NCBI GenBank assembly: GCA_937877085.1
Contig: CALEEY010000044.1
Span: forward strand, 1-54,107
DNA from: an uncultured Bacteroidota bacterium
Lineage (GTDB): Bacteria; Bacteroidota; Rhodothermia; Rhodothermales; UBA10348
Direction: 5' to 3'
DNA: 54,107 nucleotides
The notes under the pieces were generated by a model that ran no database searches, was not told the origin of the DNA, and saw only the letters and a program-made list of their open reading frames with translations. Position numbers and translations under genes: made by a program. Shown in pieces: positions 6,934 through 53,133 of this stretch. The stretch's first letter is position 1; every line of letters begins with the position of its first letter.

Positions 6934-7527
6934 ATGCAACTTGAAACCCCGCGCCTCATTATTCGAGATTTCGCTCTAACAGACGCCGCTTTTATACTCC
7001 AATTGGTGAATGAGCCAGCCTTTCATATAAACATTGGAGATAAAGGCGTCCGTACCCTAGACGATGCCCGCGCTTACATTCAAAACGCAGGTCTAGACAG
7101 CTACGAAAAACTGGGTTTTGGGATGTATTTGGTGGTTTTGAAAGACGCGGGGACGCTCGCAGGACGCTCCTCGGAGCCCATTGGAAGCACCTTAAGTCCC
7201 CATACAAACCAGGGGACTCCCATTGGAATGTGCGGGCTTCTCAAGCGGGACTTTCTCCAGCACCCCGATGTAGGGTTCGCATATGCTTCTGCGTATTGGA
7301 ACAAAGGATATGGGACGGAGGCAGCAAAAGCCGTAATGCATTGGGCAACAACAGTTTTGGGCTATTCAACATTGTCCGCCTTTACGACCACAACCAATGG
7401 GGCATCCATTCAACTCTTAAAAAAATCAGGATTTACGTCGTTGGGCGAACAGATTTTCCCTGGGAGAGATGCGAAAAGTCATGTTTTGATCTGGAACGCT
7501 TCTAGCGAACCATACTCAGGGATTTAG
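6934..7527 (+). CDS. GNAT family N-acetyltransferase (RimJ/RimL-like)
   Basis: Acetyltransferase of the RimJ/RimL branch of GNAT. The N-terminus LETPRLIIRDF is the diagnostic opening of that branch, and DVGFAYASAYWNKGYGTEA is the acetyl-CoA-binding region with the G-x-G-x-A-type turn. The closing STLSAFTTTTNGASIQLLKKSGF is also typical. Members acetylate protein N-termini, antibiotics or small amines; the substrate here is unknown. It begins at a clear ATG in the region divergent from the S9 peptidase and its last 26 bases overlap the 3' end of the convergent DUF1501 gene. Confidence 0.9.
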   Translation: MQLETPRLIIRDFALTDAAFILQLVNEPAFHINIGDKGVRTLDDARAYIQNAGLDSYEKLGFGMYLVVLKDAGTLAGRSSEPIGSTLSPHTNQGTPIGMCGLLKRDFLQHPDVGFAYASAYWNKGYGTEAAKAVMHWATTVLGYSTLSAFTTTTNGASIQLLKKSGFTSLGEQIFPGRDAKSHVLIWNASSEPYSGI

Positions 7528-9166
7528 TCTGAACGCCTTGGCTCGTTGTGACTCTCAAAAAATACGTCCCACTGGGTAGGGAGCCAGCTTCAAAGGGGAT
7601 TTGATGTCTCCCAGCCTGAAGTTGCCGATTTAAAACAGTCGCGACATTCTTCCCTACCACGTCAAAAAGGGCTATTTGGACAGCCTGTGACCGATCTATC
7701 TCAAAGTCGATCATGGTTCGGTCTTGGAAAGGATTGGGATACGTAGTCAATAGACGGACGGCTTCAGGCTCAGTCCACGGTTCGGTGTTCGTCACAAACG
7801 ACGAATCAAGAATAGAAATGGGGCTAAAAGAGCCAGAAATAAGCGATTCTACTTCTGTCTGCTCAAGACCAAACCAATCCTTCAAAATGGAAGCGTACAG
7901 ACCTCTAAAATCGATACTGTAGTTCATATTTCCCCCAGGTGCGAGCTGGGTAAGACTGGGCTGCGCCCCGATCAATCCTCCGGCTACTCCCCCGCCAAAC
8001 ATAAAAAGGGGCGCGCTAGTGCCATGATCCGTTCCGCCCGACCCGTTTTGATAGATCCGGCGCCCAAATTCAGAAAAAGTCATGACCAGAACTTCTTTAT
8101 CCCATCCGTCAGCTTTTAGGTCGTCCATAAACGCCCCGATCGCGCCGGACAATTCTTGCATTAGACTTTGATGACGGGTCAATTGATTGGAGTGCGTATC
8201 GAATCCACCCAAATTCAGATGATAAATATTCGCCCCTAGTCGTCCCCGTATCAGCTTGGCTGTAATCGCCAAATTACCCGAAAGACCCGTCCTGGACGGG
8301 TACGCTACTAAATTGGAACCTTTGTTGGACGCTGCTTGAATGGAATCCGCAAACTGAAACGAATCGTTGGCCACAGACCGCATAAAGGAAAGCTCACTTC
8401 CGAAGGCGTTGGACGGAGCAAATCCTTCATCAAAAAGAACTCCATCTTGAGCAAATTGCGCCAAAAGGCTGAGATTAGGAAATGCGATTCCCATTCTGGA
8501 AGTCGATCCTTGAAACAGGAGCGGCGCACCGTTTCCGAGTTGTAGAGCCAACGGATAGGTTGGAGCTTGGGTAACAAAATCAGGGTATTCTTGCGTCAGA
8601 TAACGCCCCAGCCATCCCGTGCTCCCAATATGGTCGGACGCATCCCCCGTCAACCAGACATCGGTGGAAGAAAAATGCGACAGTGTCGGGTCTTCGTACC
8701 CGACTCCATTGAGTACTTGCATCACGCCGTCTTTGTACAACCGATCAAAAGAAGTCAAGCTAGGATGGAGTCCAAGATCATTCGAAAGCTTTAAAACGGA
8801 ATTGGGGGAAATAGAAATAGCCGGCCGAATGCGGTAATACTCGGGATCTGAGTAAGGAACGACTGTATTTAATCCATCATTCCCCCCAGAAAGCTGTACC
8901 AAAACCAAAATCCGGTCCGTTCCGGAACGGGACAACGATTGCAGCAATGGAGATGTGGAAAAGGCGCGTACGGTGGACGTTCCAAATCCAAAAGCACTGC
9001 CCGTGGCGGCAAGGCCTAGACCCTCAAGAAATTGACGGCGTGACCATGAAACATGGGCCTGGGCATGTTTTTCGCCATGCTCTATGCACTCGCCCTCTCG
9101 ATGCGCTACGAGCACTTCGTCGCTATTGGGGTTCGATTGATGTGGGCTATGTTCGTGATCGCACAT
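7502..9166 (-). CDS. DUF1501 family protein with Tat signal and T9SS sorting domain
   Basis: DUF1501 protein (alkaline-phosphatase/sulfatase-like fold family, function unknown), predicted to be exported and then surface-attached or secreted. The first ~42 residues form a His/Glu/Cys-rich extension (MCDHEHSPH... GEKHAQAH), followed by a perfect twin-arginine motif SRRQFLEGLGLAATG. The DUF1501 core follows (LVQLSGGNDGLNTVVP, then SEFGRRIYQNGSGGTDHG). The last ~80 residues are a T9SS type A sorting domain: YPNPFQDRTMIDFEI, LFDVVGKNV, and LPSGTYFLRV. An AGGA element lies six bases before the ATG, and the DUF1800 gene ends only eight bases upstream, so the two form an operon. The Tat signal plus T9SS tail implies export of a folded, perhaps metal-loaded protein. 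Confidence 0.95.
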   Translation of the reverse strand: MCDHEHSPHQSNPNSDEVLVAHREGECIEHGEKHAQAHVSWSRRQFLEGLGLAATGSAFGFGTSTVRAFSTSPLLQSLSRSGTDRILVLVQLSGGNDGLNTVVPYSDPEYYRIRPAISISPNSVLKLSNDLGLHPSLTSFDRLYKDGVMQVLNGVGYEDPTLSHFSSTDVWLTGDASDHIGSTGWLGRYLTQEYPDFVTQAPTYPLALQLGNGAPLLFQGSTSRMGIAFPNLSLLAQFAQDGVLFDEGFAPSNAFGSELSFMRSVANDSFQFADSIQAASNKGSNLVAYPSRTGLSGNLAITAKLIRGRLGANIYHLNLGGFDTHSNQLTRHQSLMQELSGAIGAFMDDLKADGWDKEVLVMTFSEFGRRIYQNGSGGTDHGTSAPLFMFGGGVAGGLIGAQPSLTQLAPGGNMNYSIDFRGLYASILKDWFGLEQTEVESLISGSFSPISILDSSFVTNTEPWTEPEAVRLLTTYPNPFQDRTMIDFEIDRSQAVQIALFDVVGKNVATVLNRQLQAGRHQIPFEAGSLPSGTYFLRVTTSQGVQTKSLSMVR

Positions 9167-43445: not shown

Positions 43446-44165
43446 ATGATTGATATCGAAATCTGCATTGATTGCACAGACCCGTCTAATGCCCTCTCTT
43501 CTGCAAACGCGGCACTAGAAGGAGGCGCTAAAAGAATCGAATGCTGTAGGGACATGCACGAAGGCGGATTGACGCCCGAATTGCCGATTATTCAACAAAT
43601 TGTCGACCTCGTTGGCGGCAAAATAGAGATTGTTGTCATGATTCGGCCACGCAGCGGCGATTTCAATTTCAATAGATCTGAACGATTGAATATGCTGACT
43701 CAAGCACAAGAAATAATAGCTATTGGCGTCGACGGCATTGTTTTCGGGTCACTCGACAACGGAAAATTAGACGAAGTGCTATGTGAGGAAATGGCCCTAT
43801 TCGCAAGCTATAACGGCGTTAAAAACACATTTCACCGGGTGTTTGACGCACTTTCTGATCCCATAGGTGCCCTCGAATTCCTCGAGGAAGCCCGATTCCA
43901 ACGGATTTTGACTTCGGGAAACCCTTGGGGCAGTTCATCGACTGCCGTCGATGGCATCCCAAACATCAACGCTTATGCCCTAGAATCTCCAAAGATGGAA
44001 TGGGTCATAGGCGGGGGCGTTTCCGCCGAGAATGCTTCGGCTCTCATTCAGGGCATCACCGCAAAACATCTGTCCTTGCACGCGTATTCGTCTGTACTCG
44101 AAAATGGAGTTACTTCGGCGCTAAAAGTGAAACAACTCGTCGAAATAGCTCAAAAAACCCGGTGA
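43446..44165 (+). CDS. cutC: Copper homeostasis protein CutC
   Basis: A 239-residue TIM-barrel protein of the CutC family, linked to copper handling. Matches to the family signature: CIDCTDPSNALSSANAALEGGAKRIECC, EGGLTPELP, VMIRPRSGDF, GVDGIVFGSL, FHRVFDALSDP and LTSGNPWGSS, plus IGGGVSAENA near the end. The 3' end overlaps the DUF5777 gene by 16 bases. Start at ATG 43446. Confidence 0.94.
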   Translation: MIDIEICIDCTDPSNALSSANAALEGGAKRIECCRDMHEGGLTPELPIIQQIVDLVGGKIEIVVMIRPRSGDFNFNRSERLNMLTQAQEIIAIGVDGIVFGSLDNGKLDEVLCEEMALFASYNGVKNTFHRVFDALSDPIGALEFLEEARFQRILTSGNPWGSSSTAVDGIPNINAYALESPKMEWVIGGGVSAENASALIQGITAKHLSLHAYSSVLENGVTSALKVKQLVEIAQKTR

Positions 44166-44995
44166 ATGTTAAACCCAAATCCCAAGTCGCCTTCGAAGAA
44201 GTTATTTCGGGACTTAGAAGCCACATATTGCGGGACGATCCATTGAGTGGACGTTAGAAACATTTGAAACACGTGTCCTCCCGCTTCTAGGTCGACTCCC
44301 ACAGAAAATGCGTTTTCAGAGCCGTCTGAGCGCGTTCCGATGACAGGAATGTATTCAGCCAGAACGGAGACCTGTTCGGTAATCATATACCGGGAGGCAA
44401 TGCCGATGGTAACTAGGTCCGCCGCCTCTTTTTCAACTCCGCCTCCAAACACACTATTTTCTTTGGCCAAATTGAAATGGGACCATGCGGGGGATACCTG
44501 CAAACTTACCTTTTCGTTGATGGCGTGAGCCAAAAGAACGGACAAATAACTAGATCCACGATCTGAAAAGTCGGCACCGTTATCCTGGGAGTCGATGCCC
44601 ACGTTTCCAAATAGACTCACTATGGTCGGCGAACTTCCTCCAAAAGTAGCCACCTTTGCTTTTACTCGCACGTCATACACCTTATCAAACCTCGATCTTC
44701 CGATACCAATCGAAACATGGTCGGTTAGACCATAATCGAGTCCGAACCTAATATTTGCCGACGCATCCAACCCGAAAAGCTCTTTGACTCCATCGGAAAT
44801 AGGCCCAAAAGCATGCTGAATGGTAAAATTCATGTTCGAAGCAGGCAGCTGAGTCACGCTCGGAAGCGTAATGACGGCTCCAGACAAGAATAATTCCGGT
44901 GCGATTTGGGCTGTTCGCTCTCTTTTCATTTGGCCAAAGGCCATGGATGTAACGAACAAAAAGAGCCCCATAAGGACAACAATTTTTGAAGACAT
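44150..44995 (-). CDS. DUF5777 family beta-barrel protein
   Basis: An outer-membrane barrel-like protein of DUF5777, 281 residues. The signal peptide (SSKIVVLMGLFLFVTSMAFGQ) is given by ATG 44995; the track adds nine residues. The body is alternating strands such as GLDYGLTDHVSIGIGRS, KVSLQVSPAWSHFN and VSVLAEYIPVI, and the chain ends in a hydrophobic F (GFNIHRVF), as barrel proteins do. It is third in an operon with the YceI and cytochrome-like genes, a known Bacteroidota arrangement whose function is unclear. Confidence 0.85.
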   Translation of the reverse strand: MSSKIVVLMGLFLFVTSMAFGQMKRERTAQIAPELFLSGAVITLPSVTQLPASNMNFTIQHAFGPISDGVKELFGLDASANIRFGLDYGLTDHVSIGIGRSRFDKVYDVRVKAKVATFGGSSPTIVSLFGNVGIDSQDNGADFSDRGSSYLSVLLAHAINEKVSLQVSPAWSHFNLAKENSVFGGGVEKEAADLVTIGIASRYMITEQVSVLAEYIPVIGTRSDGSENAFSVGVDLEAGGHVFQMFLTSTQWIVPQYVASKSRNNFFEGDLGFGFNIHRVF

Positions 44996-45027
44996 ACGGT
45001 GTTGTAATGTATGGCTATTCATTTTTG

Positions 45028-45609
45028 TTATCGAACTACCGGTTGTTTGGGATCGGAGGATAGGATCGCATGAATGCTTATTTCTTGCCTTTCATCGACC
45101 TTCATTACTAATAGTTTGGGCGGCGTGATATTATAGTCACTCAGGTTTAGAGACCAACTAGCATCTAACTGCCACGAGGACCCCGTCCTTTGAAGGGTAC
45201 CACGCACCGTTATTTCCTCTTTCACACCGTGAAGGCCAAAACTTCCCTTCACTTCCACTGGTTGACTAGCCAACGAATTTTGATCCACTGGCTTCACTAA
45301 AGAACCGAAAAATTCGGCGAAAGGATACTTTTTGACTTCCAGTGTGGTCCTCATGTCCTTATCGCGTTTCCCAATTCCGGTATTTAAGGACGCCAAATCG
45401 ACATAAAAATCCACCGTTCCGTCTGCAAAATTGATCGTGCCCACCAACTCCTGAGAGACCCCAGAAAAGGTGTGAAGTGGCACGTGTGAGGTAAATGTAA
45501 CTTCTCCCTGCTTAGTCGCCACTACCTGCGCCGCTAGCGGAATGGAGAGCATCCATGCCCCCATAACCGACAGAAAAATAGCTTTTCTAGTTGTTGAGAG
45601 CGCCTTCAT
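45028..45609 (-). CDS. YceI family lipid-binding protein (exported)
   Basis: A periplasmic lipocalin-like YceI-family protein of 193 residues, predicted to bind a polyisoprenoid-type lipid such as ubiquinone. A Sec signal peptide (AIFLSVMGAWMLSIPLAAQ) follows ATG 45609; the longer track start is not needed. The family core is visible: GEVTFTSHVPLHTFSGVS, GTVDFYVDLASLNTGIGKRDKDM and KYPFAEFFGS. It overlaps the cytochrome-like lipoprotein gene by 23 bases and precedes DUF5777, so the three are co-transcribed. Confidence 0.93.
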   Translation of the reverse strand: MKALSTTRKAIFLSVMGAWMLSIPLAAQVVATKQGEVTFTSHVPLHTFSGVSQELVGTINFADGTVDFYVDLASLNTGIGKRDKDMRTTLEVKKYPFAEFFGSLVKPVDQNSLASQPVEVKGSFGLHGVKEEITVRGTLQRTGSSWQLDASWSLNLSDYNITPPKLLVMKVDERQEISIHAILSSDPKQPVVR

Positions 45610-46024
45610 TGATCCACTTTGAAATGGTGCTAATTTTATTGGTTGAAAGGGGGGATTTTCCATCCGGCATTCGTTTACCAAACCGAGGACTAGAGCCGAG
45701 TTTGTCTACTAGTGGACTCAATGAGGCGTTTCCTGCCACAATAATGGGCCCACCGTATGCTGAGCCTATACTTCCCATTGCTGTGGCATAGGTAGTCAAA
45801 TTCACCCCGTTCTTAACATTGTTTATATGACAACCTGACCCGGCACAGGAACTGTGGAATATTTGAGAAACATCCTGAGAAAAGCTAACCGGACCGGCAG
45901 GAACGATCGGATCGTCGTCTCCGGGGCCTACAACGTCATTCCCAGACCCTCCAGAATCGCTCCCGCAGGCCGAAAAGAATATAAAGGTGCTCAATAAACA
46001 GAAAGAAATAAAGCGACTGGACAT
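45587..46024 (-). CDS. Lipoprotein with c-type cytochrome-like CX4CH site
   Basis: A 145-residue lipoprotein (lipobox FSACG) with an acidic/Gly/Ser-rich linker, then a domain starting VSFSQDVSQIFHSSCAGSGCHI. The heme-binding-type site is C-A-G-S-G-C-H, that is CX4CH in place of CXXCH. The following LTTYATAMGSIG and SPLVDKLG and the late MPDGKSPLS with M as possible axial ligand match cytochrome c (PSCyt1-like) domains of Bacteroidota. Whether heme binds is inference. First gene of the minus-strand operon with YceI and DUF5777. Confidence 0.85.
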   Translation of the reverse strand: MSSRFISFCLLSTFIFFSACGSDSGGSGNDVVGPGDDDPIVPAGPVSFSQDVSQIFHSSCAGSGCHINNVKNGVNLTTYATAMGSIGSAYGGPIIVAGNASLSPLVDKLGSSPRFGKRMPDGKSPLSTNKISTISKWINEGALNN

Positions 46025-50937: not shown

Positions 50938-53133
50938 ATGTCTACGATAAAAAAAGCCGGCGGTTGGGCCTCCATTGCCTACACATTTAGAAAAGCGAGA
51001 GAATCTGGGGGTTTTTTCGCGATGTGGCGCGCTATGCGATCCCGAAACGCATGTAAAACATGCGCCGTCGGGATGGGGGGGCAAAAAGGCGGGATGGTCA
51101 ATGAATCGGGTCATTTCCCCGAGTTTTGTAAAAAAAGCATCCAGGCCATGGCGGCGGACATGCAACCTGCCATACCAGCCGAATTTTGGTCCGACTATCC
51201 CATTAGGCGACTACAGCAAGCAAGTCCTCGTCAGCTCGAAGCATTCGGACGGCTATCCGAACCCGTTCGGTATAGACGGGGCATGCCCGGATATGAAATA
51301 CTGTCCTGGGAAGAGGCTTTTTCGTCCATCACTTCACGCTTAATTGCCACCGACCCGAACAAATCATTCTTCTACTTTAGTGGACGCAGTAGCAACGAAG
51401 CAGGCTTCCTGTTGCAGTTGTTCGCCCGTTTGTACGGCACAAACAATGTCAATAACTGTAGTTTTTATTGCCATCAAGCCAGCGGCGTCGGACTAAATCA
51501 GGTATTGGGAAGCGGGACGGCAACGGTCGTGTTGAAGGACCTGGACAAGGCCGATCTGGTGATTTTGATTGGGGCCAACCCTGCGAGCAACCATCCGCGA
51601 CTCATGAAATCGTTTATGCAGGTGCGCCGCAGAGGTGGAAAAGTAATCGTGATCAATCCCATTAAGGAATCTGGCCTAGAATCTTTCAGTATTCCGTCGG
51701 ACCCTCGTTCGCTGCTTTTTGGAAGTAAAATCGCTTCTAAAATGATCCAGCCGCATATAGGCGGCGACCTCGCCCTCCTTTCGGGAGTGGCCAAGTCTCT
51801 CTTGGAGACCCGAAAAATCGATTACGATTTTGTTCAGTCCCATACGGAAGGCTTCGACGTTTTTCGCGCGGAATTAGACCGGACTAAGTGGGACACGATT
51901 GTCACTCAATCTGGGGTTGACAAATCCACGATTGAACAAATAGCCGCGGACTATGCAGAGTCCAAAAACACCATTTTTGCCTGGGCTATGGGGGTAACAC
52001 ACCACCTCCGCGGAACAGAAACGGTCCAAATGATCGCTACTATAGCCTTGTTAAGAGGCATGGTTGGAAGAGAGGGCTGCGGCCTCATGCCCATTAGAGG
52101 TCATTCCAACGTCCAAGGCATTGGCTCCGTAGGAGTAACGCCACGGTTAAACAAGGTCATTTTTGAGAACCTTGTTTCGGAATACGGAATTGATTTGCCA
52201 ACGGCCGACGGCCTGGACACGATGGGCTGCATAGAGAAAGCACATGCAGGGGAGTTGGAAATCGGGTATTGCTTAGGTGGCAATTTGTACGGCTCGAATC
52301 CCGATTCCGTTTTTGCAGCAAAAGCGCTGTCTAAGCTTAAAATGTTGGTAACCCTCAGCACCACGCTCAATACGGGTCACGCATGGGCTTTGGCAGAAGA
52401 AACCATTGTTTTGCCCGTTTTGCCCCGAGACGAAGAACCTCAGCCTACCACACAAGAGTCCATGTTCAATTTTGTTCGCATGAGCGAGGGCGGGGAATCT
52501 CGCATGGACGGCCCTCGAAGCGAAGTATCGGTCATAGCAGAACTTGCCTCTAGAGTTCATAAGGACGGGCATCAGGACCGCTTGAATGCCATTGATTGGG
52601 CCGACCTTAACGATACGGACAACATTCGATCCATGATTGCACGCGTCGTACCGGGGTGGAAAGCGCTAGCCACGATGAACGAAACCAAAGCTGAGTTTCA
52701 AATAGATGGCCGCACGTTCCATACGCCCATATTCAATACGCCGACTGGCAAAGCTCGAATTTTTCCCGTGTCGCTGACCCAAGCATCCGAGCTCGGAGCA
52801 GGTACCTTCCGTCTCATGACCATCCGTAGCGAAGGTCAGTTTAATACGGTTGTCTACGAAGATCACGATGACTACCGGGGAATTGATAGCCGAGACGTCG
52901 TCCTGATGCATTCTGAAGACCTCCGACATCTGGGACTGCGACATGGACAGCGCGTTACGGTCTACGGTCCGAGCGGGCGCATGCCTCACGTGCAGGCCAT
53001 TCCCTTTGATCGAATCAAACGCGGTAATGTGGCTATGTACTTCCCCGAAGCCAATGTTTTGCTGTCAAGAGAGACCGACCGGCTGAGCAAAACACCAGCG
53101 TTTAAAGGAGCCGTGGTATCCATCCACGATTAG
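50938..53133 (+). CDS. FdhF/YdeP family molybdopterin oxidoreductase
   Basis: A 731-residue enzyme of the FdhF/YdeP branch of the DMSO-reductase superfamily (molybdopterin guanine dinucleotide). The N-terminal ACKTCAVGMGGQKGGMVNE holds the CxxC typical of this branch, which lacks the full 4Fe-4S set of formate dehydrogenase H. Other matches: YFSGRSSNEAGF, NNVNNCSFYCHQASGVGL (active-site region), LVILIGANPASNHPRL, VTHHLRGTETVQM and GHSNVQGIGSVG. Reaction unknown; in E. coli YdeP is linked to acid resistance. No FdhD or cofactor gene is nearby. Start ATG 50938. Confidence 0.93.
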   Translation: MSTIKKAGGWASIAYTFRKARESGGFFAMWRAMRSRNACKTCAVGMGGQKGGMVNESGHFPEFCKKSIQAMAADMQPAIPAEFWSDYPIRRLQQASPRQLEAFGRLSEPVRYRRGMPGYEILSWEEAFSSITSRLIATDPNKSFFYFSGRSSNEAGFLLQLFARLYGTNNVNNCSFYCHQASGVGLNQVLGSGTATVVLKDLDKADLVILIGANPASNHPRLMKSFMQVRRRGGKVIVINPIKESGLESFSIPSDPRSLLFGSKIASKMIQPHIGGDLALLSGVAKSLLETRKIDYDFVQSHTEGFDVFRAELDRTKWDTIVTQSGVDKSTIEQIAADYAESKNTIFAWAMGVTHHLRGTETVQMIATIALLRGMVGREGCGLMPIRGHSNVQGIGSVGVTPRLNKVIFENLVSEYGIDLPTADGLDTMGCIEKAHAGELEIGYCLGGNLYGSNPDSVFAAKALSKLKMLVTLSTTLNTGHAWALAEETIVLPVLPRDEEPQPTTQESMFNFVRMSEGGESRMDGPRSEVSVIAELASRVHKDGHQDRLNAIDWADLNDTDNIRSMIARVVPGWKALATMNETKAEFQIDGRTFHTPIFNTPTGKARIFPVSLTQASELGAGTFRLMTIRSEGQFNTVVYEDHDDYRGIDSRDVVLMHSEDLRHLGLRHGQRVTVYGPSGRMPHVQAIPFDRIKRGNVAMYFPEANVLLSRETDRLSKTPAFKGAVVSIHD

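Follow-up and report, generated by a model that had tools for sequence, protein, structure and literature searches.

A conserved YceI-DUF5777 gene set of Bacteroidota with an exchangeable electron-carrier lipoprotein

The operon and its products

On the minus strand of an uncultured Rhodothermales contig (CALEEY010000044.1; the whole stretch of 54,107 nucleotides is referred to as the window), three open reading frames follow one another in tight order at 44150-46024, encoding a lipoprotein with the motif CAGSGCH, a YceI protein and a DUF5777 protein. These are the three genes named in a preliminary description made from the sequence alone, and Pfam confirms the YceI and DUF5777 families. The same description had called the operon overlapping, which holds for the first junction, where the cytochrome and YceI genes share 23 bp if ATG 45609 is taken as the YceI start, and fails at the second, where YceI and DUF5777 are adjacent with a gap of 5 bp. 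ATG 45609 (MKALSTTRKAIFLSVMG..., a signal peptide) is the likely start, with a longer reading frame open up to TTG 45681. At its 3′ end the DUF5777 gene overlaps a convergent cutC-like (CutC-family) gene by 16 bp, and the divergent flanking gene, of 487 aa, has only a weak trehalase match in Pfam; the flanking genes look unrelated to the operon. A scan for sigma-70 promoters and terminators gave no signal above shuffled sequences. Chance reading frames were ruled out by the Pfam scores and by the conservation of the operon. Elsewhere in the window, positions 7502-9166 (minus strand) encode a DUF1501 protein with a Por secretion-system C-terminal sorting domain, and a molybdopterin oxidoreductase gene lies at 50938-53133 (plus strand), about 5 kb from the operon and on the opposite strand.

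The first gene (45587..46024, minus strand), whose position in the operon we term slot 1, encodes a 145-aa lipoprotein that we assign as a monoheme, class-I-like cytochrome c from its reading frame, its invariant residues, its profile matches and an AlphaFold2 model. In an alignment of 44 relatives the only invariant residues are C20, C60, C65, H66, M119, P120 and one tryptophan. Cys20 (codon 45965..45967, minus strand) is the lipobox cysteine and the predicted site of lipid attachment, the heme-attachment motif C60-A-G-S-G-C65-H66 (CX4CH) occupies 45827..45847 on the same strand, and Met119, within RMPDG (codon 45668..45670, minus strand), is the probable sixth heme ligand. The window protein falls below the Pfam cut-off for PSCyt1 (PF07635; 12.8 bits vs 22), and 21 of the 44 aligned members match that family at E≤0.01. 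A profile of the family searched against the PDB found FoxE (E 8e-8) and cytochromes c6. The AlphaFold2 model, built without heme, has helices as in a class I cytochrome (mean pLDDT 81); Foldseek returned weak matches for it, with hydrazine synthase alpha and FoxE at the top and a best E of 8e-3. The protein shares with PSCyt1 and the class I cytochromes (FoxE, cytochrome c6) the heme motif, the distal methionine, the C-terminal helix and a profile match, but is distinguished from them as a small, sub-threshold lipoprotein with two extra residues between the heme cysteines.

Across related loci, the CXnCH motif is present in all 103 distinct slot-1 cytochromes and was never lost, a Met-Pro pair downstream of it is kept in 100 of the 103, and a strict regular expression for the lipobox matches 94/109 slot cytochromes. 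Given that the motif is never lost, that Met-Pro is kept and that CX4CH is known from cytochrome c3, the window lipoprotein likely binds heme. The heme-type site claimed in the preliminary description is borne out by the retained motif and Met-Pro pair, and the model has class-I-like helices. The genome from which the window derives also has a cytochrome c assembly gene and menD.

The second gene (45028..45609, minus strand) encodes a 193-aa protein, signal peptide included, of the polyisoprenoid-binding, lipocalin-like YceI family (PF04264, 65.6 bits vs a cut-off of 23.7), and its best solved relative is BcnB (5IXG). The third (44150..45022, minus strand) encodes 290 aa ending in phenylalanine and matches PF19089 over profile positions 1-247 of 247, at 239.8 bits vs a cut-off of 23.1. 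AlphaFold2 models this DUF5777 protein as a 12-strand β-barrel (pLDDT 89.6), predicted to reside in the outer membrane, and the nearest folds found by Foldseek are outer-membrane channels, such as NanC and a COG4313 channel, at TM-scores of about 0.5. Its invariant residues include H70, R155, G248-G249-H250-V251-F252-Q253 and R288, and conservation covers E246-H250; judging from the order of the strands, the periplasmic rim is the expected neighbourhood of H250 and R288. H70 and H250 were considered as heme or metal ligands and dropped, since strand parity places both seemingly facing outward.

Conservation of the gene set and exchange in slot 1

Of 396 Bacteroidota genomes sampled, 154 contain DUF5777; of 14 control genomes, none does. 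Culturable members that carry the genes include Cytophaga, Mucilaginibacter and Balneola (loci L076, L071 and L055). We examined its surroundings in two collections: set 1, comprising 80 stretches with 81 DUF5777 genes, drawn mostly from the higher-scoring matches of the 396-genome sample, and set 2, comprising 60 loci from public genome contigs with flanks of up to 10 kb and a few genomes shared with set 1. In set 1, a YceI gene lies on the same strand within 2.5 kb of DUF5777 in 66/81 cases and a cytochrome gene in 65/81, with the exact order Cyt-YceI-DUF5777 in 34/81. In set 2, 50 same-strand cytochrome matches lie at up to 1.5 kb, as against none in the 4-10 kb range, and for YceI the corresponding counts are 50 and 2. 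This linkage is far beyond chance, and the recurrence in Bacteroidota that had been claimed at the outset is supported. For 13 of the 81 DUF5777 genes a cytochrome is present but the profile detected no YceI, although at least one of them (L216) has a divergent YceI; a few loci hold YceI and DUF5777 with no recognised redox gene. Both kinds of locus weigh against the module proposed below. Neighbour clustering of the set 1 loci revealed no catalytic enzyme as a constant operon member. A COX1-family gene is present in 45/45 genomes with DUF5777 and 57/64 without (109 sampled), a weak association uncorrected for phylogeny.

Several further neighbours were observed. A tRNA_anti-like (PF12869) OB-fold protein is encoded beside YceI-DUF5777 in 23 loci (L129:3468-3860 and 22 others). 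In many loci outside Rhodothermales a second, larger cytochrome of about 240 aa, with one CX4CH and one CXXCH motif, lies just upstream of the slot-1 cytochrome (for example L133:5357-6100, L136:2221-2934, L162:1174-2274 and L172:13211-13942). In 17 loci (L114, L125, L145 and 14 more) the 5 kb upstream of DUF5777 include a sigma-70/ECF-type gene on the same strand, a count with no formal background rate; in some of them an anti-sigma-like membrane protein comes next, which hints at envelope-stress control.

The operon YceIs constitute a coherent lineage that separates from ordinary Bacteroidota YceIs in a tree. Constraining all 111 of them together gave a likelihood better than that of the free search, and the constraint was not rejected (p-AU 0.75); the quick YceI tree itself shows no single clean clade of operon YceIs. 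Their sequences are compatible with one clade.

The spacing of the heme motif proved far less stable than the motif itself. Among the 103 slot cytochromes, 46 have two residues between the cysteines, 42 have four, eight have five, six have six and one has three, and on the DUF5777 tree the two- and four-residue forms interchanged at least 8 times. The extra residues map directly after the first cysteine, at a gap position in the profile-PDB alignments. No solved class I relative with CX4CH was found in the structure searches. The preliminary description had placed weight on CX4CH and held its loss in homologs to count against the assignment; the spacing is indeed different in over half of the orthologs, where CXXCH, CX5CH or CX6CH takes its place in the same slot, but the heme site is never lost. 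With the five other matches to the cytochrome profile in the window's genome all using CXXCH, we rejected CX4CH as a defining trait, and the spacing appears to be an ordinary, labile variant. The motif occurs twice in cytochrome c3, a tetraheme protein that likewise attaches heme covalently through CX4CH, but is multiheme and unrelated to the window cytochrome in fold and role (PMC10454114). The naturally occurring CX2, CX4, CX5 and CX6 spacings of a single monoheme cytochrome make the slot cytochromes of use in studies of cytochrome c maturation.

Slot 1 is not restricted to cytochromes. At cytochrome-less loci, neighbour clustering revealed in its place either a protein of the Rieske [2Fe-2S] type (PF00355, 45.7 bits) or one of the cupredoxin type (PF00127, 52.2 bits), and a gene for a one-electron carrier lies on the same strand within 2.5 kb in 72 of 79 (set 1) and 52 of 55 (set 2) untruncated cases. 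All cytochrome and Rieske matches of set 2 are within 1.5 kb on the same strand, with none at 4-10 kb, and one cupredoxin match lies at 4-10 kb; the Rieske profile was made from slot members, so that dissimilar Rieske proteins elsewhere may escape it. The loci with Rieske proteins belong to two DUF5777 clades that are distant from each other, and the DUF5777 tree requires at least 4 changes of cofactor type among cytochrome c, Rieske and cupredoxin. The C-x-H...C-x-x-H pattern is kept in 21/22 slot Rieske proteins and a lipobox-like cysteine is present in all 22; nearly all slot-1 carriers of the three kinds have lipoboxes. With these exchanges, what the occupants of slot 1 have in common is a single electron-carrying cofactor in a small, membrane-anchored protein and not any one fold.

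Proposed envelope electron transfer and its alternatives

These data allow us to propose that the operon encodes an envelope electron-transfer module, consisting of a redox lipoprotein, a menaquinone held by YceI and a barrel serving as dock or channel, with an antioxidant purpose; we give this reading a probability of about one half. The slot-1 lipoprotein would carry a single one-electron cofactor, here a c-type heme with His66 and Met119 as ligands, in the envelope and probably at the outer membrane. There its partner in single-electron exchange would be a redox-active isoprenoid in the YceI cavity, most likely menaquinone, and the dedicated YceI lipocalin would ferry this isoprenoid through the periplasm. 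In the outer membrane, the 12-strand DUF5777 barrel would serve the module as a dock or channel. What the data show is the linkage of the genes, an intact heme site, the exchange of cofactors in slot 1, the barrel as a structural model, a common lineage of operon YceIs and a branch tied to quinol-oxidoreductase genes; heme loading, the direction of electron flow and a physical complex are features of the model that we infer. The cytochrome c assembly gene and menD of the genome agree with the model. The likeliest purpose would be to maintain the right redox state of outer-membrane or periplasmic lipids or quinones. Both the menaquinone exchange and the antioxidant role are proposed by analogy with LcoA-BcnA, for which it is suggested that a bound quinone quenches lipid peroxyl radicals and is re-reduced by a cytochrome (PMC9113575). 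A second precedent is Cbp2D, in which YceI-like and cytochrome c domains are fused (PMC8981238). The known cargoes of YceI proteins are ubiquinone-8 and octaprenyl compounds (PMC9113575), and the cargo here could be another isoprenoid or a lipid.

The main rival is a respiratory conduit, in which NrfD-type complexes or a quinone bound to YceI would relay electrons from the menaquinone pool to the redox lipoprotein, which would pass them to an external acceptor through or at the DUF5777 barrel, or in which electrons would run in reverse from an external donor. Part of the evidence for it comes from a divergent DUF5777 branch of nine loci (L131, L132, L138, L141, L146, L148, L152, L154 and L172; 20-kb versions L216-L224). 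In five of these (L216, L219, L220, L221 and L223) the Cyt-DUF5777 pair is followed downstream by NrfD, a Tat-type 4Fe-4S ferredoxin and a further cytochrome c, families that are Pfam-confirmed for L216 and recognised by sequence in the others. The adjoining NrfD and ferredoxin genes tie the pair to quinone oxidoreduction, and the run has the appearance of a quinol-oxidoreductase operon, so far undescribed, that includes an outer-membrane barrel. Upstream of the pair, several loci have an EB_dh-type protein, L216 has a YceI (PF04264, 34 bits) and L221 has a hexaheme MtrC-like protein, the last of which also favours a conduit, as does the closeness of the cytochrome profile to FoxE, a candidate phototrophic Fe(II) oxidase and its nearest relative of solved structure. 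The NrfD branch points to respiration and not defence, and in this respect speaks against an antioxidant module. However, the window's operon has no NrfD neighbour, and a soluble lipocalin with interchangeable single-centre carriers makes no obvious transmembrane wire. Porin-cytochrome complexes, moreover, combine barrels of 24-32 segments with multiheme cytochromes (PMC5566968), compared with one heme and 12 strands here. We consider the conduit unlikely overall. More doubtful still is the specific proposal of a hitherto undescribed Bacteroidota envelope electron route that dispenses with multiheme cytochromes, running from the menaquinone pool through a lipocalin shuttle and an interchangeable single-cofactor lipoprotein across or onto the outer membrane at the DUF5777 barrel.

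Two other features were noted by eye in the divergent branch. A small cytochrome and a NorB-like gene lie about 1.3 kb downstream of the Cyt-DUF5777 pair at L218:11816-13607, and an apparent CRISPR array (repeat translated as SYQRSVLVADSQ) lies beside Cas1- and Cas2-like reading frames at L223:2534-5891.

Envelope electron transfer as the job of the gene set, which the preliminary description had suggested, is well supported by the replacement of cytochrome c, Rieske and cupredoxin carriers by one another, by YceI sequences compatible with one clade and by the NrfD and ferredoxin neighbours of the divergent branch. The lipid-quinone part of that suggestion derives from the YceI family. As to its proposed span from inner face to outer membrane, an inner-membrane quinone partner (NrfD) stands beside the genes in the divergent branch only, and for the window's operon such a span would be conjectural. 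A unit for substrate import and oxidation would use the same parts differently: the barrel would admit a small molecule, YceI would bind it for periplasmic redox chemistry, and slot 1 would accept electrons from, or donate them to, an unlinked enzyme. The small-molecule channels closest in fold to the barrel are consistent with this, as are the EB_dh-type or sulfite-oxidase-like genes adjoining some loci. The operon, however, lacks a constant catalytic enzyme, and the YceI family is associated with long isoprenoids rather than small polar substrates (PMC9113575), and we regard such a unit as improbable.

Still less credence attaches to a system for trafficking isoprenoids or lipids to the outer membrane, with a structural or regulatory slot-1 protein that takes no part in electron transfer. 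The octaprenyl compounds and ubiquinone-8 bound by YceI proteins (PMC9113575) and the predicted location of the barrel would suit trafficking, but slot 1 is held by three unrelated folds whose sole common feature is a one-electron cofactor, which a structural role is unlikely to select. A CX4CH protein devoid of heme, its motif being a metal site or disulfide, would accord with the sub-threshold Pfam score and the lack of a solved CX4CH class I relative in our searches, but is very improbable given the invariance of C60, C65, H66 and M119, the alternation with CXXCH in slot 1, the two CX4CH motifs of cytochrome c3 and the cytochrome c assembly gene of the genome.

Relation to known systems

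The gene set is a widespread putative envelope redox module of Bacteroidota. Its families are known singly, and the module is undescribed in the open-licence papers searched; what is new and can be tested is the exchangeable redox slot. In that literature we found no paper naming the DUF5777 domain and nothing on the present gene set among YceI operons in Bacteroidota; a paper on iron in Riemerella includes a YceI gene in its list of changed genes, with no operon context. A slot that accepts a cytochrome, Rieske protein or cupredoxin gives DUF5777, so far a domain with no assigned function, a place in an envelope redox system that can be tested.

Three known systems resemble parts of this arrangement. 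In the porin-cytochrome complexes (Mtr/Mto/Pio, PCC3 and PCC4; PMC5566968) a cytochrome c gene likewise stands beside an outer-membrane barrel gene. In contrast to these, the carrier here is monoheme and replaceable by Rieske or cupredoxin, the barrel has 12 predicted strands and a YceI gene lies in between; membership was rejected on the single heme motif as against multiheme cytochromes and on 12 strands as against 24-32. Cbp2D/Cbp2E of Cellvibrio japonicus (PMC8981238) also bring YceI-like and monoheme cytochrome c domains together outside the cytoplasm, but there the domains are fused, as in Cbp2D, in carbohydrate-binding proteins tied to polysaccharide oxidation, with no barrel partner described. 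The LcoA-BcnA system of Burkholderia (PMC9113575) likewise links a YceI lipocalin genetically to an envelope heme protein in a Gram-negative bacterium. Its partner is an inner-membrane cytochrome b561, whereas at the loci studied here no linked cytochrome b561 gene serves as the operon's partner, which is instead a c-type cytochrome, Rieske or cupredoxin lipoprotein accompanied by the DUF5777 barrel. By this analogy, the gene set may be regarded as a candidate Bacteroidota counterpart of the LcoA-BcnA defence against lipid peroxidation.
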